The notes under the pieces are model-generated. The model searched no databases, had not been told where the DNA came from, and saw nothing but the letters and a program-made list of their open reading frames with translations. DNA of 64,000 bases from NCBI RefSeq assembly GCF_004006665.1, contig NZ_QOCL01000009.1, positions 186,001 to 250,000 on the forward strand, in the 5' to 3' direction. The stretch's first letter is position 1. Every line of letters begins with the position of its first letter. The position numbers and the translations under genes are program-made. The stretch comes from Halobacteriovorax sp. HLS. Lineage in GTDB: Bacteria; Bdellovibrionota; Bacteriovoracia; Bacteriovoracales; Bacteriovoracaceae. Below are positions 3,687-56,499 of this stretch, piece after piece.

Positions 3687-3711
3687 TCTGCAAACTTAAA
3701 TATTGGAATTT

Positions 3712-6700
3712 ATGACAAGTAAACTATTACTCATTTTATTGGCCATTGCGCTTTTTGGAACTTCTTGTTCTAAGGAATCTCTGTCTGGAAAGATTGAAGT
3801 GAAAGGACTTGTTAATCCAGACGAAAAGTCCCCATTAGTTTCATTTGTAACTACTGCTCCAACAACGATGAATGGTTGGCAAGACTTTGAGCTTGAATAT
3901 ACAGTTGTAGATGACCCTGAAGATTTTAGTGGTATTTCGAAGACTCAATTATATTATACTCCTGATTATGACACCGTCGGATTTTCTCTGGTTGGAGATA
4001 TTCCTAATGGCGTAAATCAGAAAGTACAATTCTGTGTTCCAAACTTAAATCATCCTAAGCCTGCTTTTAAAATTATTGCTTTTGATAACAATAATAATAA
4101 TGCTGAACAAACGCTTGGGCATGAGCTTGGACAAAATTTTTCAATTAATATCGAAACTGATCCTACTGTCCCAACGATGAGTTCTAGTCTTGGAGTATTG
4201 ACTAAGAATAATCCAACTACGATGAATATCTCTTCATGTGGTTATAATTCATGTTCGGCAGGAGCACTACACTTTAACAAAAATTCTAATACAACTTACT
4301 TACTTGTAAATACAACAGGTGTTCAGCCATCGGCCGGTGATGCTGGATGGATTAGCTGTGAAAGTGTTGCTTCTTCTGGAATGGTTCAGTCACTTTTTGG
4401 AGCAGATGGAACTTACAACTATCATCTATGGTCTAAATCTGTAGAACTCGATTTTGATGGAATTACTTCTTTAGAATATATTTCAAGTACGAGCTCTGAT
4501 GTAACTATAACCTACGATTCAACTGCACCTATTGATATTCCAGCGAATCTTCAATTTACAAATGGATTTAGTTTTACTGGAGATAATGTTGCTGTGACTT
4601 GGAATGGTTTTACAGACATGAATGTTGTAGACCATAGAATTAAGACATACAAAGACTCATCTTGTATTACTGGCGAAGCAGTTCACGGAACTACTTCTTC
4701 GGGCCTTGCTGCTGACTCTATTATAGTTGATGGTCTTACGGAGGGGCAGTACTGGGCCACTGTTACAGCTATTGACCATGTTGGACTTGAGACAACATCA
4801 GCTTGTTCAACTGATTCTATTATCGTTGATTCAACTGCTCCTGTTGATAATGGAGCAAATTTACAATTTGCAGATACTTTAGATATTGATGGTGATAATT
4901 TAGATATTTCGTGGACGGCTTTTACAGACTTCACTCTAGCTAATCACAGAATTAGAACTTATACCAATTCTACTTGTACACTGGGAGAGGTGATTCATGC
5001 TTACACTGGAAATGCTTCAAGTGCTGACAATGCTTCTGTTGATGGACTTCCTACTGGAGATTATTGGGCGAGAGTTGAAGCGTTTGATGGTTTTGGAACA
5101 TCAACACTTTCAGCATGTTCGACAGACACAATTAGAGTAGATAAAGATTCACCGATTGATAATGGAGCTAATTTACAATTTGCAGATACTCACGATATTG
5201 ATGGAAATAACTTATCTGTTTCTTGGACAGCTTTTACAGACGGTAATGGAATTCCTAATCACAAGCTTTATACTTATACGAACTCTGCTTGTACTCTTGG
5301 TGAAACTGACCATGGTGGGACAGGAAGTGGTACTAACTCTGATGCGGCAATAATCGATGGTCTAGCAGATGGACAGTACTGGGGGATTGTAGAATCTTTC
5401 GATACTATTGGTAATAGTACAAAGTCTGCCTGTTCAACAGATTCCATTATTGTAGATGCTACTAACCCTGTAGATAATACAGCAGATATTCAGTTCGCTC
5501 TGGTGAATACGAATTTAAATAATGATGTAGCAATTTCGTGGACGGCATTTACAGATGCTACTTTAACAAATCACAGAATTCACCTCTATAGAGATTCAGC
5601 TACGTGTGTCGCTAATGAGACAGACTTTGGATTAACAGGCTCTACGACTAATTCCAATAACACTCTTATTGATGGTCTCGCTGATGGTGTTTATAAAGCA
5701 AAAGTTACAGCTATAGATTTTCTTGGTAGATCTACTCAATCGGCATGTTCGACTGATACTATTATCATTGATAAGACTAACCCTACAGATAATACTGCTA
5801 GTTTAACGTTTACTAATGCATATAATAATACCGGTGATAACCTTGCAATTACTTGGACCGCCTTTAGTGACTCTTACTTAAAAGAGCATAAAATAATTAC
5901 TTATACTAATTCTGGTTGTACTCTTGGAGCTGTTGATCATGGTTATAATGCTTCGACTTCAAATAGTGATAACACCTCTGTAGATGGATTAACCACAGGG
6001 ACTTACTGGGCAACCGTGACAGCTATTGATGAAGCTGGTAATACTACAACTTCATCATGTTCAACTGATTCGATAATAATTGATACAACGAAACCAACAG
6101 ATAATACTGCTAATGTTCAATTTACTGATGCATTCGATGTTGACGGTGATAACTTAGCTATTACTTGGACGGCCTTTAGTGATACGAATAGTATTGCTGA
6201 TCATGAAATTCTAACTTATACAGATTCAGGCTGTACTACGGGGGAGATTGTTCACCCTAAGACTGCATCTGGGACAAACTCAAATTCAACAACAGTAGAT
6301 TCTTTGGCAGATGATCAATACTGGGCTAAAGTAAGGGCCTTTGACTCCGCTGGTAATTTCGAGACCTCTGCATGTTCGAGTGATTCCATTATTGTAGACT
6401 CACAAGCACCGACAGATAATACTGCAAATATTCAGTTTACTCTAACTCATACAAACTTAAATGATAATCAAGCTGTAACTTGGACAGCGTTTACTGATGT
6501 AACTCTTGCTAATCACCAACTTTATACTTACACAGACTCTCTTTGTTCTGCTGGTGAAGTTGATCATGGGCTAACTGGGTCTTCTAGCGCTTCAGATAGT
6601 GCTGTTATAGATGGACTTGGAGAAGGTCAGTACTGGGCAAAGGTTAAGGCAATAGATCAACTTTCGCAAAGCACTACCTCTGCTTGTTCAACAGATTCAA

Positions 6701-9700
6701 TCATTGTTGATCAAACTCTACCAGTTGATAATGGAGCAAATTTAACATTTACAAATGATTATAATAACACTGGTGATAATGTTGCTGTAACATGGACTGC
6801 TTTTACTGATACTTACTTAGATCACCATATTCTTCTTACTTATACAGACTCTGGTTGTACTCTTGGAGAGGTAGCACACCCATCAACTGGAAGTGCGACA
6901 AACTCCAATAATACAGTAATTGATGGTCTTACAGATGGTGTTTATTATGGAAAGGTTAAGGCCGTTGATGCTGCTGGAAATGAGAGACTTTCTGCCTGTT
7001 CTACAGATTCAATAACTATCGATACTATTGCTCCAACTGATAACACTGCTACTCTTACTTTTACAAATGATTATGATAACGACAGAAATGATATCGCTGT
7101 AACATGGAGTGCTTTTTCAGATTTAAATGGAATTGTTGATCATAGAATTATTACTTATACCAATAGTGGATGTACAGTAATTGATACAACTCATGCTTTA
7201 ACTAGTTCTGGCACGAATTCAGATTCTGTAACGGTAGATGTTAGCTCTGATGGAATTAAGTATGCAAAAGTTAGAGCTTATGACCCAGCTGGAAACTACA
7301 CAGAGTCTGCTTGTTCAACCGATTCAATTACAGTTGACTCTACTGCTCCTGTCGATGCTCCAGCAAACTTACAATTTACTCTCTCTCATTACAACTCTAG
7401 TGATAATGTTGCGGTCACTTGGACGGCATTTACAGATTTAACTTTAGAAAATCACAGATTGATTACTTATACAGATTCAAACTGTACTTTAGGTGAAGAT
7501 ATCCATGGACTTACTGGCGCTTCAACTAATTCAAACAATACAATAATTGATGGGCTTGCAGAAGGTCAGTACTGGGGGAAAGTTGTTGCAATTGACCATA
7601 TGGGATTTGAAACAACTTCGGCCTGTTCTACTGATTCGATTATAATTGATTTAACGAACCCAACTGATAATACAGCAACTCTTACTTTTACTAATGATTA
7701 TAGTAGCACTGGGGATAATGTTGCTGTCACATGGACTGCTTTTTCAGATACATATTTAAGTGATCATAGACTTTATACTTATACTGATTCTGGTTGTTCT
7801 TTAGGTGAGATTGATCATGGTCTGATTGGTAATGCAACAAACTCTGACAGTGTAGAGATAGATGGTCTTGATGATGCTGGAGCCAACAAAGGTGTATACT
7901 ACGCGATAGTTGAGGCCATTGACCTTGCTGGGAATAAAACAAAATCTGCTTGTTCATCAGATTATATCACCGTAGATGAAACTGATCCTACAGATAATAC
8001 AGCTAATCTTCAGTTTACAAATGATTATAATAATACGGGAAGCAACCTTGCTGTGACTTGGACGGCATTTACAGATACAGCTCCAGGTGTGATAGCTAAT
8101 CATCAGATTGCTACTTATTCTAACTCTGCATGTAGTACTGACGAAACGATTCACCCACTTACAGGTTCTTCTACAAATTCAGATAGCACAACTGTTGATG
8201 GACTTGTAGATGGTCAATATTGGGCAAAGGTAACTTCATTTGATGGAGCTGGAAACTCTGTTACATCAGCATGTTCAACTGATTCTATAGTTGTGGATAC
8301 TGTTGCTCCTGATCAAAGTCCTCTTACTGTTGTTGGTACTGTTGTTACAGGACAAGCATTAGGTCTATATAAGCTAAGTGCTTGTACTGATGTAGATAAA
8401 GTTAAAATAACTCAAGGTGCTGGAGCACCTCCTCTTGATGGAGATTCAGGTTGGCAAAATTGTGATGCTGTAAATTACACGATCACGACAACTGCACTGA
8501 ATCAAGGATTAAACAATCTTCAATTCTGGATTAAGGATTTAGCAGGCAATGTTCAATCAACATATCTTGCCCATCAAACTTTCTATATTCCACCGACAAT
8601 TACGGTTGAAAATGGACCGACTATAAATACAGATGTTGCGTCCATGACAATTAATTACTGTGCTGAATCGGATATTTCATATGTTCTTTTCAATGAAACG
8701 GGCACAGCGCCTACTGTTGGTGATGGAGCTTGGCAGCCTTGTTCAAAGGCCATTGGTGCGCTTTCCTCGGCATCTTTAAGTCCAGGAGACCATACTTTAA
8801 AAGCTTTTTTCAAGTATTCTGATGATAGTATCTCAGTTGTACCTATGGATGTGCCAGTTCGCTATGAACCAACTATTGCTTGGGTTGAAACTCCATCAAT
8901 CAATAGACCACACGTAAGCTTTACACTTGGTAGCTGTACTGGGGTTTCTGAAATTCTGTTTAACCAAGGAACTCAACCTGCAGTAGGAGATGTCGCTTGG
9001 CAACCTTGCTCTACTGCCAATGGTGGACTTACTCACACTCTAACTACAACTGGCAGCCAGAGTTTAAATGTTTGGTATAAAGATTTAAGCTCTACTGTTC
9101 TGAGCGACTACTCGCAGGTTACTGTTAATTTTCAACCACCGACTGCTTCGATCTTTGGTGGAGCGGCCATTAGTACTAATTCTCCAAAATTATCAATCAA
9201 TGACTGTACAAATATTTCAAAGGTTTTTGTTAAGTTAAATGATTCAACTCCTACGACTCCTGTAGCTGTTGATTTCACAGGAAGTGGTCAAAACTGTACG
9301 ACAGCATTAAATGGAATTGATGTTCCTGTTTTACCTGAAGAGGGAGTACACACACTAGATGTTTGGTTCTACTTTAGCGATGCTTATATTTTAGATCCTT
9401 GGTATTCAAGAGTAAGTGTTACTTATACTGCTGTTGACACTACTGCTCCTCCTATCACAGGAGGCCAAGGAGCAGCTGTACCTCTTTCTATGAACTTGGA
9501 AAATGGTGATGCGTCTTCGCCTCCAATTCTCCAAGCTTTCTCTTCAAGAGCTGAATTTACACTAAATACTTGTTCTCCAAACCCGGATGTTGCTCTTACT
9601 GGTACTGTTACCGTTTCAGCAGCTTCAAGCTCTGTGACTGGATCTGGAACTACGTTTACAACAGAACTGAGTGCCGGTGATTTTATCGATATATCTGGAG

Positions 9701-12700
9701 AGCTTTTAAAGATTAAGTCAGTTGATTCTAATACTGCTCTTACTTTGGTACTTACACATACTGCTGGCGCAACTTCTGTAGCAGCAACAAAGAAGTATCC
9801 ACTAGATACTATTACTGGAATGATTATAACTGAATCATCTACGGCGCCTAGTGCTGCTGATCCTGATTGGTTAATCTGTTCAAACGCTACTGGTGCACTT
9901 AAATCAAAGTCATTAGAGCCGGACGGAGTAAAGAACTTGTATGGTTGGTTTAAAGATGCTGCCGGAAATCTTTCTGTAACATCGTTATCTCAACAAGTTG
10001 AAGTTCAAACTTCGGCAGATACAACACCTCCTCCAAGACCAGAGGTTATTGTAGAGGGGGCCCCTAACTTGTCGACATCTCCAGCTGAGTTAACGATTAC
10101 TAGTTGTACAGACGTTGATCAAGTTTATCTTGAGCCTTCTGTTTATCCATCTGCTTATGTTGCTCCTAGTGCTGCTGCAAGTGGATGGCAGAACTGTTCT
10201 GAAGCTATAGGGGATATTAAATACTATCTAACACTATCTGGTAGTTATACTTTATCTGTTTGGTTTAAAGACGCTGCTGGAAATATTAATCCAACTCCAA
10301 GAGATGTTTCTTTTATTTTCGATCCTTCAATTGGAAGTTTCTCAACACCTCTTGCTTATTGGACTATGGATAAAGTTCATAAGAAGACTTCTCAGATTTT
10401 AGATATGAAAGGTGATAATCATCTTTATATGTGGGATAAAGCAAATTTGACGGAAGTTACAGGTAGAAGTAATGAAGCTATAAATTTTTCTGGGACAAAT
10501 AGTTATTTATTTGCAGTCAATGATGCTGATCTTCAACCAACAATCTCTGTTACTATGTCAATGTGGGCATATCTAACCAATAGCGATGTTTCTACTAAGG
10601 CCCTTGCGGGAAATATTCAAGCAGGTGTTGGTGGTTACGGCTTCAAATTAAATGGTGGTAATTTACATTTCTATGCAAGTGGGCAATCTACGAGTGTTGC
10701 GACTTCAACTTACTCAACAGGATGGCAACATATTGTTGGTACTTCTGATGGTCGTTATATCAATATTTATATTAATGGTGTTCTAAAGAATACTTTTGAT
10801 ATGGGAGCTGCTGCAAATCTTACTTATGGTTGCTCTCAAGTATTTGCGATAGGTTCTGATACTGATTGTTCTCCTAATCCTACTGCAACCAATTCTTTCA
10901 ATGAAAGAATTGATGAAGTTGTTATTTGGGGGCAGTACTTCACTGAAGAAGAAGTCATGAGCCATTTTATTGATAGCTTTAATGATAATAAAGTAGGTGT
11001 AACAACAACTAAACCTGCTGATATTGCTTCGGCGACTTTCTATGGAGAGCACTTACAAAATGCTCTTTTAACAGTTAATGATTGTGGTACAAATAAATTC
11101 ATCTATGTTAACGAAACGACTCACCCTCCAACAGTAGACTCTGATGATTGGCAACTTTGTACTACTGTAAAAGGTGCAACAATTCATAAGAATTTATCTC
11201 AAGGGCCTCATGAATTAAAGATTTGGGGTAAAGATGAGTACAATAATATAACTAATAGTTATATCAAAGTAGATACAACTATCACTGGACTTGAATACCA
11301 AAAGCCAGGACTTTTATATTACTCTCTAGATAATAATCACCTAAATCTTAATACGGCATATGATATTTTCTCTGGTCATCATGCAACAAATGTTGGAGCT
11401 TCTGCAAATCAAACAGGTATTCAGAATGAAGGTTTCTTGTTTGAAAGAGCAAATAATGACTATCTAGAAAGAAAGTATTCTTCTAATTCTCAACCAACTG
11501 ATAAAGTAACAATATCTGTATGGGCCAACCTTACACAAGGTGACAATAGAGCTCAAGTGATAGCTGGTAATAGAATGACTAACCATGGTTATTCTATTGA
11601 AATAGATAATACTAACTCTGAGTTGAGATTCTTCGTTGAGTCAGCTGCAGGAACAAGGTTTGCTGGTGTATCAACTGCGAGTTTCACAAGCGGACTACAT
11701 CAAATTATTGGTGTATATGATGGACAAGTAACGAAGTTATATATAGATGCTCTTGAAGTTGCTAGTAATGACGTAGGATCTGTTTCACCAATTAATTATA
11801 CTTGTTTAAGTGCATTTACAATTGGAGCTGGAACTACTTGTAACTCTGGACCTGTTGCAAGCACGAATTTTGATAATATAATTGATGAAGTTTTCGTTTG
11901 GAATGATGCTTTAACTCAGACAGTGATTGATTTCTTCTTCAATGGTCAGGATACTGTTCCACCACTACCTTCAACTATTACTCCTAAGGATAATGCTTAT
12001 ACTGTGGGCATTCCTATCGCAAGGTTTAATGTAGGTAGTTGTTCAGATATCGCAAGTGTATATATTGCTCTCGATGATACTAAGCCTTTGGCAAATATTG
12101 ATAATTGGCAATCATGTGCCACCAGTGGAGATACGATTAAATCACCTTTACTTGAAACTGGAGCGAATACTGTTAAAGCTTGGTTTAAAGATGCTGCTGG
12201 TAATGTTTCAGACACATCAACTGATCTGGTTATTACTTATTCCCATGACTTCACTATTCCTAATCCAAACTCTTATTGGACACTTGATAATGTAAATATT
12301 GATGGTACTAAAGTATTTGATGTTGTTAGCGCAAAAGATGGTGAAAGTGATGGAACGACAAGTATCGTCGGTAAAGCAGATGAAGGACTAAAGTTTAATG
12401 GAACAAGCGACTTTGTTGAAGTTCCATTTGATGCATCTTTTCAGCCAGTAAATAGAGTAACTCTATCTGCGTGGTTTAGAACTTCTTCTTATGATGCAAA
12501 TGATCACATAATCGTAGGTAATTTAAATGCAGGTGGATATGAGCTCGCTCTAGGAAATAACACTGTGGAGTTTAGAGTTCAAGCAATTGGTTCCACTCAG
12601 GTTGCATCATTTTCAACTGGAACACTGGCCGTTGATACTTGGCACCATGTTGCTGGAGTTTGGGATGATGGAACAATAAGACTTTTTGTAAATGGTAGTG

Positions 12701-15700
12701 AAGAAGTTAATACTGTTATTGCGGCCAATGCAAATATTGAATATACCAATTCGAATTCATTAAATATTGGTGCGGCCGCTACTACTACAACTGGTCAAAA
12801 TGGAGATTTCTTCAGTGGTGACCTCGATGAAATAGCATTTTGGAATAGTGCGCTTACTGGTCCAGTTATAACTGAGATCTTTAACAGAGGAACAGATGAA
12901 GACAAAGTTTTCTATGATGTAACTCCACCAACTATTCCGGTTAGTTTAAATATTATTTACTATAATTCTCTAGTTTCTAGAGCGAATCTTACAGTTACAG
13001 ATTGTACAGGTCTTGATTATATAATCGTTACAAATGATGAATTTCCACCAGATGTTAATGATGAAGACTGGCAACTTTGTAACACTCTTACTGGTGGGCT
13101 TCTTTCTAAAGAATTATCTAGTAGTGAAAACTATGGTAAGTTTTGGACAAAAGATCTTTTTGGAAATATTTCTAAAACTTTTGAGTACGTACCTTTAGTT
13201 ACAAATTATGACAAACCAATAGCGCGTCCAGTTGTTCATTGGACTTTTGATGACTCTCATTACTCTAGTAGAGAAGCTCTCGATCGTATTTCTCAGATTA
13301 AATTAAAGAGTGATAGAATTGTTAATTTACAAACTGCCATGCCTGGGAATTCATGTCCAACATCTGACTTTTATGATGGAACTGCTGGTGCAATTACCCC
13401 TGGTGGAGCTGGTGTTCTAAATGAAGGACTTAGCTTTTCAGATGGAAAGTGGCTTCGTTCAGATCATCCACTTAATTCAAAAACTAAACCTACTAGTACT
13501 ATCTCTGTGGCGACTTGGGTTTACTTAACTGGTTCTGCTTCTCATACGAATGAGCATATTGTTAGTACTGAATATAATGGAAAGGGGTGGTCTCTTCGTT
13601 TAGATGCTGCAAACCAAGATGATAAAGGACTTCGTTTTACAGTTCATACAACGGGTGGCGTACTTGAGCCGTACCTCGAAACGAAGAACTATGTTACTGG
13701 CTGGCACCTTGTAATGGGTGTCTATGATGGGCAAACAGCTTCACTATACTTTGATGGTATTTTCGTTAAGTCATTTTCAAATGCTTCTCCTGAGGCAATC
13801 GTCTATGAACCTGGAGTAAATACAATTGTTGGAGCACAAGCTTCAACAACTGTAACACCAACTAGATGGACTATTAAGTCTTCTACTGGTGGACCTTTAA
13901 GTTGTCCAGTTACAAATCATGCAAATAGTTATTTTGAAGGAAATATTGATGAAGTTCTTGTTTGGGATAAGGGATTAACAGCTCTTGAAGCATCTTCACT
14001 TTATCATAATGGAGCAGATATTCTCTATCCAACTGATACAACAGCTCCTGCTCTTCCTTCATTGACTCTTGAAAATACAAGACCGGATATGTTCTCGGAT
14101 AAGGCATTTTTTACTCTTAGTACTTGTTCAGATATTTCAGGAGTACTTGTTAATGAAGGTACTCGTCCTGATAAGCAAGATGATAGATGGGAAATTTGTA
14201 GAACAAGAAAGGGGTCGTTTGGTATAGAAAACCTCACTGATGGTGGTCACACAATTACTAGTTGGTATAAAGACTTAGCAGGAAATGTGACACCATTATC
14301 TGCAGACCTTGTTGTTAATTATAATGCTGTTTCTGTTCCGTATGCGAATGCTTCTTGGCCTCTTGATAAAGCAGCTTCTGTTGGTAATTTTGCAAGAGAT
14401 GTCGTTGAGTTGGGTGTTCATGACTTAATTCAAACAAATATCGACACACCTGCTTATCCTCTAGCTACTCATCAGGCCGGTAAAGTAAATGAAGGCCTTG
14501 ATTTACAAGGAGGAGGTTCTTACTTAAGTACTCCTTCTACTACTTTATTAAGTCCAGTTAACTTTATGACTGTCGGTGGATGGTTTTACTTAACACAATC
14601 AGATACTTCTTCAAAAGTTTTGATTGATCACCATGAGTATACTAGTGATACAAACCGTGGTGGTTATAAAATTTTCCTTGAAGGTGGACAACTTAAATTC
14701 AAAGTAGAGCTTGATATTGTAAAAACTGTCAACTTACAATACTCAACAAGTTCTTATACTACTGGTTGGCATCATGTTTTAGGTGTATGGACTGGATTTG
14801 AAGTAAAGTTTTACATTGATGGAACTCAGGTTGCTACAACGGGAACTTTAGCTGAAAGAGATTATATGAGATATGATGACTCCACTGACTTTAGAATTGG
14901 TGCAGAGTCTGATGATTTAGCTAACCCAGTAAACTTCTTCAATGCAAAGGTTGATGAAGTCGCTCTTTGGGGATTCGATTTAAGTGCTTCTCAGGTAACT
15001 AGTGCTAAGACTAAAGGGGATACGGCCACACATATTGCTGATCCTCTTCCAACACCTTCAAATGTTGATAATGCTTATATCTATCACTATGATAATTTTG
15101 GCTCTAGAGCAAGAATGACAATGTTAAATTGTACTAATACACCTTGGATTTATGTAACAATTCAAGGTGGACCTGCTCCAAGTGCTGTTGGTGAAGATTG
15201 GAATGAATGTAGAACAGAAAAAGGGGCGATTCTTTCTGAGAAGCTGCCGCTGACGACAACTTATGTTGATGTTTATTCAAAGAATGCTGATGGAGTTGTT
15301 TCTTTAGCAGCAGGAACCAAAGAGATTACACCTATTGAACAAGACTATGATCTAGTCTTACCAATTCTTTATCACTCGTTCAATAATGATCATGTTAGTG
15401 GTAGCTCAGTATTAGATTTTATGAGTCATGTGACTTCTACCAGTTATGGGACTCCAACTCTTACATCTAATCTTGATGGTCATGAAATGATTCTTGATGG
15501 AACAGATGATTATATAGATATACCTTCTACGAAGAATTTCGATCTAAGAAAAGTTATTACAATTGCTATTTGGGCAGATCTCACGACTGGAGATAGCAGT
15601 AATAGAAGACTTGTTTCTAGAATGAGTGATGTAGACGATACGGCAATTATTTTAGAAGATGGTTTCCTAAAATTTAAGGTTAATGTTACTCATGGACAAT

Positions 15701-18700
15701 CATATCTAAGGACTTCTGATTATACTGAAGCAGTATTTCCAACAGCAAATATTCCAACGGGTAAGTATTTTATTATAGGGGAATATGACGGAACAAAGGT
15801 TAATCTTTATTTAAATTCGAATTTAGTCGACTCGGCCGATCCTGGATATAATAATTTTACAGCAACAAATGTCAGATCTATCGCAATGGATAGGGTTGAT
15901 GGATTTAGAGTATCAGATAGCGCAAGTTCATTTTGGCAAGGTAATATTGATGAATTTATGGTTTTTGATCAGCTACTAAGTGATGAAGAAAAGAACGCTC
16001 ACTATCGTAGATATATTGATGTAATGATCCCAAATGATTCAACTGCTCCTGCAACTGTTCCTGCTATCTCTGTAGTATCATCTACCTTTGGAACAAATTG
16101 GCCAACAGATAATGCTAATCCAAAGTATACACTAGATAACTGTACAGATATCGATGGTGTTTATATTACGGTTGATAATGCAACTCCTCCAAGTTCCAAT
16201 TCAAGTGCATGGCAAATCTGTTCGACAGGTGAGGGACATTTTGAAGGACCTACTTTAGGACCTGGAGCACACACAGTATATTTCTGGTTTAGAGATGCAA
16301 GTGGAAATGTTTCACCGGCCCAAACAATTGATGTTAATTATACAATTCCTCCAACATACGTACCTGTTGCTTACTGGTCAATGGATGATGACACAGTTGT
16401 TGGAAAGAAAATTTACGAGCCTGTTAATCAGTTGCATGCTGAGATTTATGAAGCGGATCTTGTCGCTGGTCAGGTTGGAACAGCTGCGCAGTTTGATGGT
16501 TCTAGAAAGTATATAGAAGTTGAAGACAACTCTATTATTAAACCAGTTGAACAAATGTCTATTTCATTTTGGGCAAATATTAATGCTGATGAAGATATAC
16601 GTGCATATAGAACTCTTTTAGGTAATCGTGGTGACTCGGCAGAAGGTTTTAGTTTTAAATGGAATTGTGGAGAATCTCCGTGTCCAGCTTCCGGTTTAAT
16701 TACAGATCTTGAGTTTTTTGATTTTACTCTAAACTTAGAAGGAACTGACTATCTTCTAACTCTGCCACAAGCGCAAATTGGTTCGGGATGGAAACACTTT
16801 GTTGCAACTTTTGATGGAAGATATATAAAACTTTATATTAATGCGATTTTAAGAAGAGAGTTAGATGTTGGTGTTGAAAAGAATATTTATTATAATCCTG
16901 CTTCAAAAACTTCTCTTATTATTGGTGCAGATGCTTCTGATGTTGAAAAGCCTTCAGGGTCTTATTTTGAAGGGCAGATTGATGAGGTTACTTTCTGGGA
17001 TAAGGCCTTACATGCTACCCATGTTACCGACTTGTACAATAATTATGCTAATAATAATGCACATATTTACGATCCGGCCCTAGCTGTTATAACACCACCT
17101 AATACACGGACTCAGATTCATAATAGTGGTGAAAAATCGTTTGGTTCTAGATTAAGACTAACTATCAGTGATTGTAGTGATATGAATATGGTCCTCGTTA
17201 ATGATTCAACAATTGCTCCTGCTGCAAATGACGAGAACTGGCAACCATGTAATACCTATGCTGGTGGTATCCTTTCCGCTCCTCTGTCACCTGGGGTAGT
17301 TACCCCAAGAGTTTGGGCCAGATCATTTACTGGTACAGTTAGTGCTTCTTCAGGAACTGCTAATAATGCTACTTATAATATGCCAACATATGTTTCAGAT
17401 ATACCAAGACCATTTGTCCATTGGTCTCTTGATTCTGCTGGAACTGGTTATTTTAGTTCTCCTAATATTTTTGATTCACTATCTTGGGCGCATGGAAAGT
17501 TAGACCTTATTACACCACCTGAAACGACTGTCACTTCTGGTGGTGAATCTGTTATTGAGGAAGGTTTTGATTTTAATGGTATTGATGAGTTGATAAGTAT
17601 TCATCCAACAGCTGCCACAAATCCAATGTATGATCTATCTATATCTGCATGGGTGGAACTTAAAAAAGGCGAGACTCAACATAGACATATTGTCGGTAAT
17701 ATTCAAAACAACCTTACTGCTTCAGGCGCTGGTTCTGGACTAAGATTACTTGGTGGTGAATTACAATTCTATGTTACTGCATGGACAGGATCAGCAAGAA
17801 GAACTTACACCGTTGGAGTTGATACAAATATCTTCAATACGGGGCTCCATCATGTAACGGGCGTCTATAATGGTAGAGATTTAAAACTCTATTTAGATGG
17901 AGTTTTTGTTAAGAAGTACTTAATTCAATTTTATAATGCTGATAGATATTGGTTATACCATGACGATTACAGTCACTGGACTATTGGTGCTGAGACTGAT
18001 GCTGCAAATGCAGGAGCTAGTGGTACGTTCTTTAGTGGTGTTGTTGATGATATTAGAATTTGGCACACTCCACTTACCGAGCAACAAGTTTTCTACGCCT
18101 ATGAATATGGATCAGACTTTCTTCCTACGAGTACTTCAGATGGTATTGCTCCTACTGATCCGGGAATCTTTATTGCAAATAATCAAACAACAACTTCGAT
18201 GCCTTGGATGTATTTTACAATGCCTACATGTACAGGAGCGAACGGAGTTGAAATTAATGCAATTTACATTAATACTGACTCAGATGCAGCACCTTCTAAA
18301 GATGATGTAGGATGGCAGTATTGTTCATTAGATAATGCTTACTTAATTTCTAAGCTTATAGATAGAGGTTCAAGTAATATCACAGTTTACTTTAGAGATG
18401 AGGAAGGGGATATTTCAGGATCTACTACTTTTCCTGTTGCTTATAGCCCTCCAGAGCTTATTCATCCAAACGCATACTACTCATTTAACGCTGTGGACAG
18501 ATCGAGTGATTCAACTTTTTATGATCTCGCTGGTGGAAAAACAGCAACGATGGAAACAAGAACTTTTTCTCCAACTAAACCAGGGATTTTTGGAGATGGC
18601 TATCAGGTAGATGCTGCGAACTGGGGAGCTGATGATACCAATCAGTATCCAATTACAAAGACCTCTACCTTTGATTATAATATTAATAGAAACTTTACCG

Positions 18701-21700
18701 TTGCTTTCTGGTTCAATCCTGCACCTGTTTATTCTAGTCAAGTGACACTTCTAAATACTGGTAAGCTTGCAATTGAGAGATCGTCTTCAGATGGAATCAA
18801 AGTTATTGCTAAACATGTGGGAACTGTTTTCTCACTTGAAAGACTTGTTCCGAGTGTTTGGAACCATATCACTGTAAGTAGACAAGATAGAAACTTAAAA
18901 ATCTATTTAAATGGAAAGCTAGATAGTTCACACCTAGTGAGTAATCTTGATTTAAAAAATGAAGCTTCTCGTTTAGTCTTTGCTGACTCTGATGGAATCT
19001 ATGATGAACTCGTAACTTATGAATCAGCACTTACTGATGAACAAGTTGCTTATATTTATTTTAAAGGTGAGAAGCAAGAGTATATTGATGTCATGCCAGA
19101 TAACGTGGTTCAGCCGAAGACGCCTGTTAACTACTGGAGCTTCGATGATTCAGCTTATTCGAATCCTATCTTGAGTGATATTGTAGGTGATATAGATCTT
19201 ACAAGAGTGAGTGCTGTTACAACTGGTGCTGCTGGAAAAGTAGGGGAGGCCCTTAGCTTCACTCGTAAAGAAGATGTTATTTTTCCAGGTGGAACTCCAG
19301 CAGAAGTTGAGAATATCGTAGGTTCTCCTGAATACTTAACAGCAGCTAGAGATCAGTTAATGAGTTTACCACAACAGTTTACTCTTAGCCTTTGGGTTAA
19401 GCAGCCAACATCGACCGGACATGAGGGAGATTCAACTGTAGTTCTAGATCAATGGGGTATTGATAAGAGTGATCAGTTATTTAGACTTCTCTATACAAGA
19501 GGCTCTACGTCTCCTAAATACACTTTTTCAATGAGATTTGGAAATAATGACGGTACTGATGTTATAGATTTAGAAACAGAGCTTACCTCTTTTGCTACTA
19601 CTACTGATTGGGTAAACCTTATCATTAGAAGAAATTACGGTGAATTTACAATGTATGTAAATGGTAGAGAGTCTGGTTCAGCAAATACTAATAAAGTCGC
19701 TGCCATGTCTTTAACTTCTGGTTCTGAAGCAAGACTTCTCTTTGGAGAAAGTAATTTAAGTGGTTATGAAGAAATATCTGGATACGTAACCATTACATCT
19801 GGAACTGCTGTGGCCACAGGTGTTGGAACTCAATTTACTAAAGAATTTTTCAAGCACGCAAGTGGTTCTGTTTCTATTGGTAGTGGTACAACACTTGTAA
19901 CAGGTCTAAATACATTATTTACAACTGAATTCTCTGTAGGAGATCGTATTGTTATAGCTGATGAGGAACATATTGTTGCTGCGATAGCTACGAATACATC
20001 GTTGACTTTACAGAGTAACCATACATCTGGAGCAACTAGAGAAAGAATTAGAAAGTATCTATCAGGTACTGTCGATATCGCGAGTGGAACTAGTACAGTA
20101 ACTGGGACTTCAACGTTATTTACGACGGAGCTTCTCGTTGGTCAAAGAATTAGAATTGGTAATGAGTTCTTTACAGTTGCAAGTATAGCGAATGATACGA
20201 GCTTAAATGTTACAGAAGTTGCTATTGATAACTCTTCGACAGCAAATCTTTCATTAGTTGAAGGTCTAACTTACAAAATTGCTTCTGAAGACTTTGTACC
20301 AAGACGAATTGTAGATGATTCTAATTTAGCTCTTTCTGTTTCTCATATGCTAGGAGCAACTGGAGAATCTATAATTTATTCATCTGGATTAACTAATGAT
20401 GAATATAGATTCAACGGTAGCTTAGATGAAATTGCTTTTTGGGATACGGCCTTCAGTTACGCTCAAGTAAAAAGTATATATAATAAAGGGCAAGCTGGTC
20501 AGGCAATTAGTGTTGAACCAGTTCTTGCTTTAGATGGAAATAAGACAATTATTAGCACACCTACAACTGGTCTTACTCTAAATAGTTGTAACGGTTATAC
20601 TCACGTTTGGGTTGGCACAACTGCTGATGCTGATCCACTTGATGGAACTGCTGGCTGGGTCGCTTGTAGCACAGTTGCAGGAGCAATTTCTTCTGGAGCT
20701 CTTGTTAGTGATTCTGTAAATAATATTAAGATATGGTTTAAAACAGGCAGTATAGTTTCAACTTATACGAATCAAATAAATATAACTCATGTTTCTGGTG
20801 ATACTACTCCTCCTTTAGTTCCAAGTATAACTATGGAAAGCCCAGCTGTTACGGATCTTTCATTTGCGAGATTCACCATTGGTAACTGTTCAGATATTGC
20901 TGGTGTCTATGTTGGTGTTACTGGTCCTTCTCCAATTGCTACACAATCTGGATGGGTGAATTGTACAACTATCAATTCTGCTATTTTATCTTCTGTGTTA
21001 AATGACGGAGCAAATAGTATCTCTATTTGGTTTAAAGACTCATCGGGTAACGTTACAGCAAGTTCGGATTTCGCTATTACTCATAATAAGCCGTCCATTG
21101 CTAACCCTAATATGTACTTAACTTTTGATGATGAGCAGACTGAGACAATCTTCACAAGAGATATCTCCAATGGAATTATTGCTCAGGCTTCAAATATTGC
21201 AGACCTTACTAAAGGTCTTACTGGACAAGTTGATGAATCAATTCAGTTCTTACTAACGAGTTATTATGAATTACTTGATAATCCAATTAACTTAACTCGT
21301 GACTTTACTTTTGCAAGTTGGATTTATCTTAATATTTCAACTTCTGACTCTACTCTAATAAATAGATGGGATGAATCACAAACAGATGATCAATTCTCAG
21401 TAAGAATTGATAATACAGGTAGAATATGTCTTGATCTACAAACCAACTCAAGTGCTGGAACTTGGAATACGGCCTCTTATAAGAGAGTTTGTAGTACAGG
21501 TAAAATTACTTATAATGAATGGGGACATGTTGGTGTTACTAGAAGCGCTGGAACTATTAAATTCTATTACAATAATGTGCTAGTGGGAACTGAGGTTGTC
21601 GACTCTTCCAACTTTATGGCCTCTTCGTTGCCTATTAGGATTGCAAACCAAGAAAGAGGTGGAGTATCAAGTTCTGCTAATGGTGAATTAGATGACATGG

Positions 21701-22782
21701 TTCTCTGGGATACTGTCCTTACAACTACTGAGTTCGAGTCCGTTTATGCTCAAGGGTTTAAGGCAAAGCAATTTGTAGATAGTATTCAACCTCAACATCC
21801 AGCCGTTGCTGAAAACTTATGGAATTTTGATACAGCTAGTTTTGCTACTTCTACCTTAAGTGATGTTATGGGTAATAATAATCTTGTCGATACCTTCCCA
21901 CTTACTGCAGGAGCCGTGTCTACAGGTGAAACTGGTCAAATTGTGGATTCAATTGGGTTTGCAAATGGGCAAATAATGGAAGCAGCATCGAACACAGTAA
22001 ATCTTGGTGATCAATTTACGATCTCTACTTGGGTTAACTTAACTGATGATAGTGATGACTTAGGAATGATCATAAATAAATGGAATACTGCAGACGTTGA
22101 TCTTCAAGAGTTTAGACTTTATACAAGTGCTCAGACAGTTGTTTTTGATTATCATGCAACGACAACGAGTACAGATACATTCCCAATGCTAGGCTTTGAC
22201 AGTATTACAAGTATTGATAAGTTGAGTTTTGGTCAATGGGCCCATATTGCTGTTACCAGAAAAGTTGATAAGTTATATATGTATATTAATGGAAACTTAC
22301 AGGCCATAAAAGAAATCGGAACTGATCCAATGAAGAATATTGGTGCCGTTCCACTTCGCTTCGGTGGTGAAGACAATACGGGATCTAACTTCCTCACCGG
22401 TAAGATTGACGATACTTATATTTCTAAATCTTTTAGTGATGAGAGACAGATTCAGTACCTTTATAATCTTGGGGCCTCAAACTCTTCTGCACCAAGTACT
22501 GTAAATCCAGTTATTAGTGTTGCAGCTGCTTCTAATACAGTTAGTACTACGACAGCTAAGCTTACAATTTCAGACTGTAAAGGTAATGCGAAGGTTCTTA
22601 TTCAGGACTCTGGTCTAGCGGCACCGGCAGCAGGCGCTTTAACTCTTGATTGTTCTTCAAGTGTTGGAGCTCATGTGTCTTCTACTCTTCCTGCAACTGG
22701 AAATACTGTTGATGTCTATCTAGGTGATGGATCATCAACAGTAATTGGACCTTTCCAAGTCATTATTAACTATGCTCCATAA
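3712..22782 (+). CDS. giant (about 6,356 aa) multi-domain predicted surface lipoprotein with Ig-like and LamG repeats
   Basis: A single uninterrupted frame of 19 kb. The N-terminus has a lysine, a hydrophobic stretch and LFGTSC followed by SKES, which reads as a lipoprotein signal with a slightly atypical lipobox. After a short N-terminal region come 12 tandem Ig-like units of about 105 residues (4516-8298), each with a WTAFTD-type strand and two cysteines. Then follows a series of cysteine-pair modules (C...W..C, ending W.KDAAGN), about 18 in all, which alternate with 12 LamG/concanavalin-like jellyroll domains (from about 10350 to 22460), recognised by openings such as YWTMD and cores such as GWHHV.GVYDG and LYIDG. 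A TTG at 3703 in frame would add MEF; the ATG at 3712 fits the signal peptide better, with only a weak GGA ribosome site. Such architectures are known from adhesins and glycan-binding surface proteins; prey or surface attachment is my inference. Its 3' end overlaps the next gene by 13 bases. Confidence 0.9.
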   Translation: MTSKLLLILLAIALFGTSCSKESLSGKIEVKGLVNPDEKSPLVSFVTTAPTTMNGWQDFELEYTVVDDPEDFSGISKTQLYYTPDYDTVGFSLVGDIPNGVNQKVQFCVPNLNHPKPAFKIIAFDNNNNNAEQTLGHELGQNFSINIETDPTVPTMSSSLGVLTKNNPTTMNISSCGYNSCSAGALHFNKNSNTTYLLVNTTGVQPSAGDAGWISCESVASSGMVQSLFGADGTYNYHLWSKSVELDFDGITSLEYISSTSSDVTITYDSTAPIDIPANLQFTNGFSFTGDNVAVTWNGFTDMNVVDHRIKTYKDSSCITGEAVHGTTSSGLAADSIIVDGLTEGQYWATVTAIDHVGLETTSACSTDSIIVDSTAPVDNGANLQFADTLDIDGDNLDISWTAFTDFTLANHRIRTYTNSTCTLGEVIHAYTGNASSADNASVDGLPTGDYWARVEAFDGFGTSTLSACSTDTIRVDKDSPIDNGANLQFADTHDIDGNNLSVSWTAFTDGNGIPNHKLYTYTNSACTLGETDHGGTGSGTNSDAAIIDGLADGQYWGIVESFDTIGNSTKSACSTDSIIVDATNPVDNTADIQFALVNTNLNNDVAISWTAFTDATLTNHRIHLYRDSATCVANETDFGLTGSTTNSNNTLIDGLADGVYKAKVTAIDFLGRSTQSACSTDTIIIDKTNPTDNTASLTFTNAYNNTGDNLAITWTAFSDSYLKEHKIITYTNSGCTLGAVDHGYNASTSNSDNTSVDGLTTGTYWATVTAIDEAGNTTTSSCSTDSIIIDTTKPTDNTANVQFTDAFDVDGDNLAITWTAFSDTNSIADHEILTYTDSGCTTGEIVHPKTASGTNSNSTTVDSLADDQYWAKVRAFDSAGNFETSACSSDSIIVDSQAPTDNTANIQFTLTHTNLNDNQAVTWTAFTDVTLANHQLYTYTDSLCSAGEVDHGLTGSSSASDSAVIDGLGEGQYWAKVKAIDQLSQSTTSACSTDSIIVDQTLPVDNGANLTFTNDYNNTGDNVAVTWTAFTDTYLDHHILLTYTDSGCTLGEVAHPSTGSATNSNNTVIDGLTDGVYYGKVKAVDAAGNERLSACSTDSITIDTIAPTDNTATLTFTNDYDNDRNDIAVTWSAFSDLNGIVDHRIITYTNSGCTVIDTTHALTSSGTNSDSVTVDVSSDGIKYAKVRAYDPAGNYTESACSTDSITVDSTAPVDAPANLQFTLSHYNSSDNVAVTWTAFTDLTLENHRLITYTDSNCTLGEDIHGLTGASTNSNNTIIDGLAEGQYWGKVVAIDHMGFETTSACSTDSIIIDLTNPTDNTATLTFTNDYSSTGDNVAVTWTAFSDTYLSDHRLYTYTDSGCSLGEIDHGLIGNATNSDSVEIDGLDDAGANKGVYYAIVEAIDLAGNKTKSACSSDYITVDETDPTDNTANLQFTNDYNNTGSNLAVTWTAFTDTAPGVIANHQIATYSNSACSTDETIHPLTGSSTNSDSTTVDGLVDGQYWAKVTSFDGAGNSVTSACSTDSIVVDTVAPDQSPLTVVGTVVTGQALGLYKLSACTDVDKVKITQGAGAPPLDGDSGWQNCDAVNYTITTTALNQGLNNLQFWIKDLAGNVQSTYLAHQTFYIPPTITVENGPTINTDVASMTINYCAESDISYVLFNETGTAPTVGDGAWQPCSKAIGALSSASLSPGDHTLKAFFKYSDDSISVVPMDVPVRYEPTIAWVETPSINRPHVSFTLGSCTGVSEILFNQGTQPAVGDVAWQPCSTANGGLTHTLTTTGSQSLNVWYKDLSSTVLSDYSQVTVNFQPPTASIFGGAAISTNSPKLSINDCTNISKVFVKLNDSTPTTPVAVDFTGSGQNCTTALNGIDVPVLPEEGVHTLDVWFYFSDAYILDPWYSRVSVTYTAVDTTAPPITGGQGAAVPLSMNLENGDASSPPILQAFSSRAEFTLNTCSPNPDVALTGTVTVSAASSSVTGSGTTFTTELSAGDFIDISGELLKIKSVDSNTALTLVLTHTAGATSVAATKKYPLDTITGMIITESSTAPSAADPDWLICSNATGALKSKSLEPDGVKNLYGWFKDAAGNLSVTSLSQQVEVQTSADTTPPPRPEVIVEGAPNLSTSPAELTITSCTDVDQVYLEPSVYPSAYVAPSAAASGWQNCSEAIGDIKYYLTLSGSYTLSVWFKDAAGNINPTPRDVSFIFDPSIGSFSTPLAYWTMDKVHKKTSQILDMKGDNHLYMWDKANLTEVTGRSNEAINFSGTNSYLFAVNDADLQPTISVTMSMWAYLTNSDVSTKALAGNIQAGVGGYGFKLNGGNLHFYASGQSTSVATSTYSTGWQHIVGTSDGRYINIYINGVLKNTFDMGAAANLTYGCSQVFAIGSDTDCSPNPTATNSFNERIDEVVIWGQYFTEEEVMSHFIDSFNDNKVGVTTTKPADIASATFYGEHLQNALLTVNDCGTNKFIYVNETTHPPTVDSDDWQLCTTVKGATIHKNLSQGPHELKIWGKDEYNNITNSYIKVDTTITGLEYQKPGLLYYSLDNNHLNLNTAYDIFSGHHATNVGASANQTGIQNEGFLFERANNDYLERKYSSNSQPTDKVTISVWANLTQGDNRAQVIAGNRMTNHGYSIEIDNTNSELRFFVESAAGTRFAGVSTASFTSGLHQIIGVYDGQVTKLYIDALEVASNDVGSVSPINYTCLSAFTIGAGTTCNSGPVASTNFDNIIDEVFVWNDALTQTVIDFFFNGQDTVPPLPSTITPKDNAYTVGIPIARFNVGSCSDIASVYIALDDTKPLANIDNWQSCATSGDTIKSPLLETGANTVKAWFKDAAGNVSDTSTDLVITYSHDFTIPNPNSYWTLDNVNIDGTKVFDVVSAKDGESDGTTSIVGKADEGLKFNGTSDFVEVPFDASFQPVNRVTLSAWFRTSSYDANDHIIVGNLNAGGYELALGNNTVEFRVQAIGSTQVASFSTGTLAVDTWHHVAGVWDDGTIRLFVNGSEEVNTVIAANANIEYTNSNSLNIGAAATTTTGQNGDFFSGDLDEIAFWNSALTGPVITEIFNRGTDEDKVFYDVTPPTIPVSLNIIYYNSLVSRANLTVTDCTGLDYIIVTNDEFPPDVNDEDWQLCNTLTGGLLSKELSSSENYGKFWTKDLFGNISKTFEYVPLVTNYDKPIARPVVHWTFDDSHYSSREALDRISQIKLKSDRIVNLQTAMPGNSCPTSDFYDGTAGAITPGGAGVLNEGLSFSDGKWLRSDHPLNSKTKPTSTISVATWVYLTGSASHTNEHIVSTEYNGKGWSLRLDAANQDDKGLRFTVHTTGGVLEPYLETKNYVTGWHLVMGVYDGQTASLYFDGIFVKSFSNASPEAIVYEPGVNTIVGAQASTTVTPTRWTIKSSTGGPLSCPVTNHANSYFEGNIDEVLVWDKGLTALEASSLYHNGADILYPTDTTAPALPSLTLENTRPDMFSDKAFFTLSTCSDISGVLVNEGTRPDKQDDRWEICRTRKGSFGIENLTDGGHTITSWYKDLAGNVTPLSADLVVNYNAVSVPYANASWPLDKAASVGNFARDVVELGVHDLIQTNIDTPAYPLATHQAGKVNEGLDLQGGGSYLSTPSTTLLSPVNFMTVGGWFYLTQSDTSSKVLIDHHEYTSDTNRGGYKIFLEGGQLKFKVELDIVKTVNLQYSTSSYTTGWHHVLGVWTGFEVKFYIDGTQVATTGTLAERDYMRYDDSTDFRIGAESDDLANPVNFFNAKVDEVALWGFDLSASQVTSAKTKGDTATHIADPLPTPSNVDNAYIYHYDNFGSRARMTMLNCTNTPWIYVTIQGGPAPSAVGEDWNECRTEKGAILSEKLPLTTTYVDVYSKNADGVVSLAAGTKEITPIEQDYDLVLPILYHSFNNDHVSGSSVLDFMSHVTSTSYGTPTLTSNLDGHEMILDGTDDYIDIPSTKNFDLRKVITIAIWADLTTGDSSNRRLVSRMSDVDDTAIILEDGFLKFKVNVTHGQSYLRTSDYTEAVFPTANIPTGKYFIIGEYDGTKVNLYLNSNLVDSADPGYNNFTATNVRSIAMDRVDGFRVSDSASSFWQGNIDEFMVFDQLLSDEEKNAHYRRYIDVMIPNDSTAPATVPAISVVSSTFGTNWPTDNANPKYTLDNCTDIDGVYITVDNATPPSSNSSAWQICSTGEGHFEGPTLGPGAHTVYFWFRDASGNVSPAQTIDVNYTIPPTYVPVAYWSMDDDTVVGKKIYEPVNQLHAEIYEADLVAGQVGTAAQFDGSRKYIEVEDNSIIKPVEQMSISFWANINADEDIRAYRTLLGNRGDSAEGFSFKWNCGESPCPASGLITDLEFFDFTLNLEGTDYLLTLPQAQIGSGWKHFVATFDGRYIKLYINAILRRELDVGVEKNIYYNPASKTSLIIGADASDVEKPSGSYFEGQIDEVTFWDKALHATHVTDLYNNYANNNAHIYDPALAVITPPNTRTQIHNSGEKSFGSRLRLTISDCSDMNMVLVNDSTIAPAANDENWQPCNTYAGGILSAPLSPGVVTPRVWARSFTGTVSASSGTANNATYNMPTYVSDIPRPFVHWSLDSAGTGYFSSPNIFDSLSWAHGKLDLITPPETTVTSGGESVIEEGFDFNGIDELISIHPTAATNPMYDLSISAWVELKKGETQHRHIVGNIQNNLTASGAGSGLRLLGGELQFYVTAWTGSARRTYTVGVDTNIFNTGLHHVTGVYNGRDLKLYLDGVFVKKYLIQFYNADRYWLYHDDYSHWTIGAETDAANAGASGTFFSGVVDDIRIWHTPLTEQQVFYAYEYGSDFLPTSTSDGIAPTDPGIFIANNQTTTSMPWMYFTMPTCTGANGVEINAIYINTDSDAAPSKDDVGWQYCSLDNAYLISKLIDRGSSNITVYFRDEEGDISGSTTFPVAYSPPELIHPNAYYSFNAVDRSSDSTFYDLAGGKTATMETRTFSPTKPGIFGDGYQVDAANWGADDTNQYPITKTSTFDYNINRNFTVAFWFNPAPVYSSQVTLLNTGKLAIERSSSDGIKVIAKHVGTVFSLERLVPSVWNHITVSRQDRNLKIYLNGKLDSSHLVSNLDLKNEASRLVFADSDGIYDELVTYESALTDEQVAYIYFKGEKQEYIDVMPDNVVQPKTPVNYWSFDDSAYSNPILSDIVGDIDLTRVSAVTTGAAGKVGEALSFTRKEDVIFPGGTPAEVENIVGSPEYLTAARDQLMSLPQQFTLSLWVKQPTSTGHEGDSTVVLDQWGIDKSDQLFRLLYTRGSTSPKYTFSMRFGNNDGTDVIDLETELTSFATTTDWVNLIIRRNYGEFTMYVNGRESGSANTNKVAAMSLTSGSEARLLFGESNLSGYEEISGYVTITSGTAVATGVGTQFTKEFFKHASGSVSIGSGTTLVTGLNTLFTTEFSVGDRIVIADEEHIVAAIATNTSLTLQSNHTSGATRERIRKYLSGTVDIASGTSTVTGTSTLFTTELLVGQRIRIGNEFFTVASIANDTSLNVTEVAIDNSSTANLSLVEGLTYKIASEDFVPRRIVDDSNLALSVSHMLGATGESIIYSSGLTNDEYRFNGSLDEIAFWDTAFSYAQVKSIYNKGQAGQAISVEPVLALDGNKTIISTPTTGLTLNSCNGYTHVWVGTTADADPLDGTAGWVACSTVAGAISSGALVSDSVNNIKIWFKTGSIVSTYTNQINITHVSGDTTPPLVPSITMESPAVTDLSFARFTIGNCSDIAGVYVGVTGPSPIATQSGWVNCTTINSAILSSVLNDGANSISIWFKDSSGNVTASSDFAITHNKPSIANPNMYLTFDDEQTETIFTRDISNGIIAQASNIADLTKGLTGQVDESIQFLLTSYYELLDNPINLTRDFTFASWIYLNISTSDSTLINRWDESQTDDQFSVRIDNTGRICLDLQTNSSAGTWNTASYKRVCSTGKITYNEWGHVGVTRSAGTIKFYYNNVLVGTEVVDSSNFMASSLPIRIANQERGGVSSSANGELDDMVLWDTVLTTTEFESVYAQGFKAKQFVDSIQPQHPAVAENLWNFDTASFATSTLSDVMGNNNLVDTFPLTAGAVSTGETGQIVDSIGFANGQIMEAASNTVNLGDQFTISTWVNLTDDSDDLGMIINKWNTADVDLQEFRLYTSAQTVVFDYHATTTSTDTFPMLGFDSITSIDKLSFGQWAHIAVTRKVDKLYMYINGNLQAIKEIGTDPMKNIGAVPLRFGGEDNTGSNFLTGKIDDTYISKSFSDERQIQYLYNLGASNSSAPSTVNPVISVAAASNTVSTTTAKLTISDCKGNAKVLIQDSGLAAPAAGALTLDCSSSVGAHVSSTLPATGNTVDVYLGDGSSTVIGPFQVIINYAP
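4516..8298 (+). repeat. 12 tandem Ig-like coding repeats, about 315 bases each
   Basis: Twelve consecutive units of 104-109 residues. Each runs from an APTDN/APVDN-type opening through W[TS]AF[TS]D, YT.S.CTLGE, VDGL..G.YWAKV.A.D, to SACSTDSI.VD. The copies have diverged at both DNA and protein level, so these are old duplications rather than recent slippage. Unit 11 has a small insertion (DDAGANKG in place of DG). The spacing and the two conserved cysteines suggest one disulphide per unit. Confidence 0.9.
10350..22460 (+). other. region encoding 12 LamG-type jellyroll domains alternating with cysteine-pair modules
   Basis: LamG-like domains start near 10350, 11308, 12268, 13231, 14350, 15367, 16368, 17410, 18472, 19120, 21112 and 21815. 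Each opens with an aromatic-rich strand (YWSMDD, HWTFDD and similar), then a segment of the form GK..EGL.F.G, a strand like VTLSAWV.L, an H-[IL]-[VI]-G-type strand, GWHH..GVYDG...LYI.G and ends with F.G.IDEV..W. This is the LamG_3 pattern. Nine of the first ten are preceded by one cysteine-pair module. Domain 10 follows domain 9 directly and contains an insertion; domain 12 follows domain 11 directly. Boundaries are approximate. Confidence 0.8.
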
Positions 22783-23276
22783 TTAAATGCTGGACTTAAA
22801 TTAGTATTCGCTCTTTCTGTTGCACTAAGAAGGGCTCCAGAGAAATTTCTTAGAATATCTCTTTTAGTTATTATCCCAACGAGCTTTCCATTATTAATAA
22901 TAGGTAGTCTAGAAACTTTATTTCTTACCATTGACTCATTAGCGTCACTTAGTGAAGCAGTAGGAGGTAGTGAGAAAATTTTCTTATTCATCACATTTTC
23001 TACTTTAAAGTTCTTGGCCTTATTAAATATGGATTCAATATCGGCCTTGTAGTGTGTTTGCCCAAGAAGCTTAGTCAAAGAAACCATGGCGTGAGGGACA
23101 TTTACTTTTCTACCGATAAAGTCTGATTCTGTTAGAATCCCTACAATATTCTGCTCTTCATCTATAATTGGAAGTCCTCCAATATTATTATCTAGCATTA
23201 TTTTTGCTGCTTCTTTTACTGTTGACCATGGATAAGCTGCAATTACATTCTTTGTCATAATTTCTTTTACTTGCAT
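22770..23276 (-). CDS. tandem CBS-domain protein
   Basis: The 168-residue protein consists of two CBS domains and little else: the first opens with VKEIMTKNVIAAYP and ends IVGILTESDF, the second opens with VENVMNKKIFSLPP and ends LVGIITKRDIL. Stand-alone CBS pairs bind adenine nucleotides and act as energy or ligand sensors for partner proteins; the partner is not evident here. An upstream-extended frame begins at 23381, but the ATG at 23276 has a strong CAGGAG ribosome site 6 bases before it and starts directly with the CBS domain, so that start is chosen. The 3' end overlaps the giant gene on the opposite strand. Confidence 0.88.
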   Translation of the reverse strand: MQVKEIMTKNVIAAYPWSTVKEAAKIMLDNNIGGLPIIDEEQNIVGILTESDFIGRKVNVPHAMVSLTKLLGQTHYKADIESIFNKAKNFKVENVMNKKIFSLPPTASLSDANESMVRNKVSRLPIINNGKLVGIITKRDILRNFSGALLSATERANTNLSPAFNYGA

Positions 23277-54917: not shown

Positions 54918-54958
54918 AAATTTTTATAAAAATCAAAATGAACTATGGAGGTTCTAAA

Positions 54959-56491: not shown

Positions 56492-56499
56492 AGGGGATT

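Follow-up and report, generated by a model that had tools for sequence, protein, structure and literature searches.

The giant gene and its domain architecture

The window, a 64,000-nucleotide stretch of DNA from Halobacteriovorax sp. HLS, contains a single uninterrupted frame of 6,356 codons at 3712-22782 (+), in a genome of 3.84 Mb; an alternative TTG start, listed by the ORF tool, lies three codons 5′ of 3712 at 3703. The features of this gene and of the two genes that follow it are listed below with the evidence for each, own-sequence profiles being those built from the giant protein.

3712..22782, +, gene for the giant predicted lipoprotein (6,356 aa, calculated 684 kDa, pI 4.4)
3712..3768, +, signal peptide with lipobox ALFGTSC ending at Cys19, lipidation predicted (pattern test)
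3769..4152, +, conserved N-terminal module, GKIEVKxxVNPD... (43-59% identity with orthologues)
4153..4497, +, Cys-pair module 1 (own-sequence profiles)
4522..8301, +, array of 12 Ig-like (Big_13-type) units of ~104 aa each (profiles and Pfam)
8302..9426, +, Cys-pair modules 2-5 (own-sequence profiles and orthologue conservation)
9529..10014, +, Cys-pair module 6, interrupted by a phage-fibre-like module (profiles and orthologue comparison)
9595..9798, +, VTG module inside Cys-pair module 6 (PHROG 1980; absent in G073)
10021..10323, +, Cys-pair module 7 (own-sequence profiles)
10324..10986, +, LamG 1 (own-sequence profile and Pfam)
11287..11946, +, LamG 2, preceded by Cys-pair module 8 (own-sequence profile and Pfam)
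12244..12906, +, LamG 3, preceded by Cys-pair module 9 (profile, Pfam and structure model)
13207..14031, +, LamG 4 (own-sequence profile and Pfam)
14326..15036, +, LamG 5 (own-sequence profile and Pfam)
15337..16047, +, LamG 6 (own-sequence profile and Pfam)
16345..17076, +, LamG 7 (own-sequence profile and Pfam)
17377..18135, +, LamG 8 (own-sequence profile)
18448..19095, +, LamG 9 (own-sequence profile and Pfam)
19099..20493, +, LamG 10, interrupted by nested VTG modules (own-sequence profiles)
19774..20397, +, nested VTG insertion in LamG 10 (half module, two complete modules, second half)
21088..21753, +, LamG 11 (own-sequence profile and Pfam)
21754..22479, +, LamG 12 (own-sequence profile and Pfam)
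22489..22779, +, C-terminal Cys-pair module 18, without RTX repeats or a C-terminal barrel (profiles and Pfam)
22770..23381, -, CBS-pair protein gene, convergent, overlapping the end of the giant gene by 13 bases
23468..24139, +, gene for a small outer-membrane beta-barrel protein (OMP_b-brl)

The original prediction, made from the window sequence, was of a single 19-kb frame for a lipoprotein of more than 6,300 residues with an N-terminal lipoprotein signal, and both parts of it are borne out by the open frame, the lipobox and the orthologues described below, in which the lipoprotein N-terminus is conserved. The N-terminus, MTSKLLLILLAIALFGTSC, fits the lipoprotein pattern (PROSITE PS51257-style), as do those of the orthologues in genomes G062, G073 and G135; the N-terminus of the fourth orthologue, in G117, reads ..LVVAC, and its start codon is ambiguous. 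We take the protein to be a bacterial lipoprotein, with lipidation predicted at Cys19. The conserved module that follows the signal peptide had no match in Pfam or PHROG.

Own-sequence profiles placed the 12 Ig-like units at residues 271-1530 (mean pairwise identity 54%) and the 12 LamG domains at residues 2205-6257 (each E <= 1e-49, mean pairwise identity 22%), and Pfam agreed with this order of 12 Ig-like units and then 12 LamG domains, which had been read from the sequence beforehand. Big_13 (PF19077) matched with an E of 7e-14 (52.7 bits against a gathering cut-off of 27). Domain search with Laminin_G_3 (PF13385) and structure prediction had been proposed as checks, and both upheld the LamG assignment: the matches to PF13385 had E values of 1e-106 and 4e-88 (353 and 294 bits against a gathering cut-off of 27.6), and the model of Cys-pair module 9 with LamG3, predicted from window-only sequences (pLDDT 86.7), showed the LamG jelly-roll, its LamG part aligning at Z 22 with the carbohydrate-binding (arabinan-binding) domain 4 of the arabinanase AbnA. 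By sequence, the LamG profile also matched the solved LamG domains of S-layer, pentraxin, sialidase-lectin and neurexin proteins. Clostridial neurotoxins also came up in the structure comparison, through a jelly-roll subdomain of their binding regions; this reflects the common ConA-like fold, and nothing points to a toxin. A model of LamG10 with its insertions (pLDDT 54) was set aside, and no convincing solved relative of the Ig or Cys modules emerged when their profiles were searched against the PDB.

The cysteine-pair modules, 18 in all, have the pattern C...W..C. One precedes the Ig array, six lie between the array and LamG1, and the others are found between LamG domains and at the C-terminus. 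The LamG domains had been described as interleaved with these modules, which holds for most of them but not for LamG9/10 and LamG11/12, which abut without an intervening Cys module. Overall, 12 Ig-like units, 18 cysteine-pair modules and 12 LamG domains are confirmed on one lipobox-bearing frame. Several frames of 2,000-3,700 aa in G073 (G073:C15:245847-250160) and other genomes of the family also contain these Cys modules, singly or in small numbers, and suggest that large modular proteins form a wider family in the class.

A rare family with a conserved scaffold

To find orthologues, a 415-residue Cys-LamG-Cys profile was run against 129 class-level and 369 phylum-level genomes. Full-scale matches (680-830 bits) were found in five of the 129 class genomes, and the same five were recovered among the 369; the next-best match, at 158 bits, came from other parts of the five giant proteins themselves. 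The four orthologues, of about 4,800-5,500 aa (5,505 aa in G062, 4,795 aa in G073, ~5,356 aa in G135, and at least 5,319 aa read from a frame of 5,357 in G117), belong to three other genera of the Bacteriovoracaceae. Homologues of the same size had been anticipated in Halobacteriovorax; they exist, though in these other genera, and are absent from the four other Halobacteriovorax genomes compared. The gene is missing from these congeners, H. marinus SJ included, and from most genomes of the class, which argues for an accessory gene that lies outside the core predation machinery. So rare a distribution (5/129 genomes) offers no link to a known phenotype.

The five proteins are collinear across the Cys modules and all 12 LamG domains, and the orthologues are 43-54% identical to the giant protein over 4,508 shared columns. 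The family is under strong purifying selection, with codon-position identities of 0.77/0.84/0.42 between the closest pair, G117 and G135. End-to-end conservation in four other genomes, together with these codon-position identities, indicates that the giant frame is not a chance one, and the collinearity over 12 LamG domains under such selection points to a real, rare gene family. Orthologous LamG domains are 26-69% identical by position, well above the mean among the 12 paralogues within the giant protein, so the 12 domains diverged before the genera split and have not been homogenised since. The Cys modules of the stalk are mostly more conserved than the neighbouring LamG domains, a pattern consistent with binding heads that drift on a fixed stalk.

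Lineage-specific insertion of beta-rich modules

The Ig array was seen only in the window genome and is absent from all four orthologues. In G073, Cys module 2 directly follows Cys module 1, and it is exactly between these two that the 12 Ig units sit here; in G062, G117 and G135 a different, shorter segment occupies this position. On these grounds we regard the 12-unit array as a lineage-specific insertion, and the LamG/Cys scaffold with its lipoprotein N-terminus as ancient. The idea of a single "12 + 12" plan does not survive this comparison: since the array is a separate insertion and its units did not form one clade in the unit tree, most branches of which were weakly supported, the equal counts are best taken as coincidence. 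Related Ig units are found elsewhere. A separate lipoprotein of the same genome, of 1,147 aa (L075:2191-5634, G000 contig C14), has four units of this type and, by eye, kelch-type repeats in its C-terminal part. Arrays of 13 units occur in a different lipoprotein in other Bacteriovoracia (L069/L074, MAG M0603; L070, GY13CL_bin.21), and their units are far more alike within the array than are those of the window gene.

A second class of insertion, in Cys module 6 and LamG10, had been overlooked in the original prediction. These are VTG modules of ~68 aa, with the rough consensus GTV.I..GT..VTG.GT.FTTEF..GD.I.I.GE...I.SI.NDT.LTL..NHT.GAT, which matched phage tail-fibre N-terminal domains (PHROG 1980, tail fiber protein, E 2.3e-13; phrog_28473, E 5e-10) and are, by these profile matches, evidently homologous to them. 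With the module-free G073 as the reference for defining insertion sites, VTG insertions were found in Cys module 6 and in LamG10 here and in G062, G117 and G135, in LamG8 in the latter three and not here, and at the Cys12-LamG6 junction in G062 only; the N-terminal variable segment of G062, G117 and G135 holds one or two further modules. The insertion in LamG10 is nested, a VTG module being split at position 25-29 by a complete module, and in the window genome two complete modules lie within the split one, whose closing half was identified by alignment to the orthologues.

Because these copies are nested and lineage-specific, we favour gains in the other genomes over loss in G073 as the likelier direction. 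Nucleotide identity between modules at different sites is at most about 55%; no recent mobility at the DNA level is visible, and we rejected a selfish-DNA reading for this reason, so that shuffling of protein modules, and not recently moving DNA, is the process. A second VTG-bearing lipoprotein is present in the same genome (L076:593-5242, G000 contig C16, minus strand; 1,549 aa, with a lipobox); it has one VTG module and, after it, what resembles a second, diverged copy; the insertion appears to lie within an Ig-type domain, and other parts of the protein contain He_PIG Ig domains. That relatives keep the lectin scaffold and swap the Ig array and phage-fibre pieces suggests an evolving sticky fibre.

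The genomic site

In the four congeners, only a stretch of ~500 bp separates the upstream GTPase gene from the orthologue of the exonuclease gene at 24136-24711, whereas in the window 20.7 kb containing the giant, CBS-pair and small beta-barrel genes lies between them; the latter two are thus also extra at this site. A small cysteine-rich, zinc-finger-like gene lies between the GTPase and exonuclease genes in all four congeners (L080-L083) and is missing at the site here. The giant gene of G062, G073, G117 and G135 is oriented divergently from a CheY-like gene, which in turn adjoins a HAMP histidine kinase gene. In the window genome this pair is on another contig with no giant gene beside it; given the different site of the giant gene and the solitary kinase pair, the giant gene has either been relocated or arrived by transfer.

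Identity between the window genome and G062 is 54% for the giant protein and 36% for the kinase (43% and 37%, respectively, for G073), and we did not accept this as evidence of horizontal acquisition, since with five taxa it is a contrast of branch lengths and not a conflict of topology. By codon third positions and GC content the giant gene is not clearly foreign. The two flank stretches compared share no direct repeat of 10 or more bases, no tRNA was found at the site, and no integrase was found among the scanned neighbours.

Further downstream, the window encodes a BamA-like Omp85 protein with POTRA domains (46870-49164, -), adjoining an FxsA gene and 24 kb from the giant gene, and a multihaem cytochrome with c554/c7-type motifs and TPR repeats (52638-54827, -). 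A same-strand run at 54938-62520 (+), comprising a sulfatase, a MoxR-type AAA ATPase and further genes including a weak VWA match, resembles a MoxR-VWA (BatA/B-like) operon.

A putative lipid-anchored lectin fibre

Our preferred reading, to which we give a probability of roughly 0.55, is that the protein forms an accessory surface fibre, anchored by a lipid at its N-terminus and binding glycans multivalently, for which we infer the display, the ligand and the adhesion. Carrying a type II signal peptide, such a protein would leave the cytoplasm through Sec, be lipidated at Cys19 and be displayed outside the cell as an outer-membrane lipoprotein in the form of a very long, flexible, multivalent lectin fibre. 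Its stalk would be made of disulphide-closed Ig-like modules, and its 12 ConA-like (LamG) domains, along the distal two thirds, would bind prey, particle or biofilm-matrix glycans by avidity. The extended shape would measure about 170 nm if each domain contributed ~4 nm. The scaffold of N-terminus, Cys modules and 12 LamG domains would be inherited, while length and reach would be tuned by the insertion of beta-rich modules, namely the 12-unit Ig array near the anchor and the phage-tail-fibre-type modules in loops. LamG folds also serve in non-glycan protein binding, so the proposed ligand is a guess.

How the fibre would reach the surface is a further matter. The absence of an adjacent type I or two-partner system, already remarked on in the original prediction, held up among the window genes scanned with Pfam, which likewise showed no type IX system adjoining the giant gene; a genome-wide search for Slam (PF04575) gave no match and was equally silent in control genomes. 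A lectin fibre of more than 600 kDa might use a lipoprotein export route that has yet to be described, its gene acting as a landing platform where phage-fibre modules enter loops of conserved domains cleanly, nest there and retune the binding of prey or surfaces between lineages, but we hold this bolder version as tentative and rather doubtful.

Among the alternatives, the one that survives best, although we consider it unlikely, is that the surface protein captures or scavenges polysaccharide, in nutrient or matrix binding, and does not attach to prey. The best structural match of the LamG domain, to a carbohydrate-binding domain of an extracellular arabinanase, would suit this role, as would the absence of the gene from most of the class, including the predator H. 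marinus SJ; however, no glycosidase or SusCD-like transporter adjoins the gene here or at the two Pfam-scanned orthologue loci. It is less probable again that the protein is a periplasm-facing outer-membrane lipoprotein or a structural scaffold that never reaches the outside. A lipobox by itself does not confer surface exposure, no known exporter is at hand, and two orthologues have Asp at position +2, which is an inner-membrane retention residue in enterobacteria, a rule that may not hold here. On the other hand, an extended 6,300-residue protein of beta domains would be many times longer than the periplasm is wide, and its lectin-like domains would have no obvious periplasmic role. Release from the cell, in vesicles or by proteolysis, as a matrix or prey-coating protein is about as improbable: Bdellovibrio does deposit fibre proteins in vesicles on prey (PMC10769870), but the lipidated N-terminus is conserved here and no protease site was identified. 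Finally, a decaying or misassembled repeat gene has next to no chance of being the explanation, for although repeats are easily misassembled and the Ig array is found in the window genome only, the Ig units differ at 33-57% of residues, leaving no near-identical copies to collapse, and four independent genomes carry intact collinear orthologues with strongly constrained codon positions.

If the surface-fibre reading is confirmed, few lipid-anchored surface proteins known from Gram-negative bacteria would match this one in size, and the open question of how very large lipoproteins are exported to the surface could be tested directly. The orthologues form a natural series, with no Ig array, a 12-unit array and differing phage-fibre insertions, in which to follow how giant adhesins become longer and acquire specificity when modules are inserted cleanly and in frame.

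Comparison with known systems

LapA and SiiE are giant RTX/BIg adhesins exported by type I secretion with C-terminal signals. The protein described here resembles them in being a huge Ig-repeat rod with lectin-like domains, but its anchor would be an N-terminal lipid, and we rejected a type I secreted RTX adhesin of this kind since there is no GGxGxD (RTX) motif in its 6,356 aa and a lipobox is present. A two-partner-secreted protein of the FhaB type was likewise rejected, as the Pfam scan of the giant protein revealed neither an N-terminal TPS domain nor a haemagglutinin-repeat match. A LamG-containing stretch matches profile positions 147-362 of the TafC family fimbrial protein in NCBIfam (NF052521) with an E of 1e-29, but membership was rejected because the score of 103.8 bits compares with a cut-off of 410 and the first 146 profile positions are unmatched. 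Literature searches yielded nothing relevant on LamG proteins in Bdellovibrio or Bacteriovoracaceae, on giant LamG lipoproteins or on TafC.

Two systems of predatory bacteria come closer. The Bdellovibrio MIDAS adhesin Bd0875 bears a lipobox (PMC11003981) and, like the giant protein, is a lipobox-anchored, beta-rich, proposed predator surface adhesin whose export is unsolved. Bd0875 is nevertheless defined by a VWA/MIDAS domain, for which the giant protein, with its thousands of residues, has no match in Pfam, and we rejected a MIDAS adhesin of this type. The MAT fibres of Bdellovibrio, which are trimeric and have a conserved ~130-aa beta domain after the signal peptide (PMC10769870), are similar in that they are predator fibres recombining known adhesive folds with phage-fibre parts. 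By their description, they are set apart as ~1,000-aa trimers that contain beta-helices and vary at their C-terminal tips, whereas the giant protein would be a single chain of tandem globular domains in which the phage-type pieces lie in loops and not at the tip. With the phage tail-fibre N-terminal domains themselves (PHROG 1980 and 28473) the likeness is one of homology, the modules occurring here as loop insertions, partly nested, in cellular proteins.
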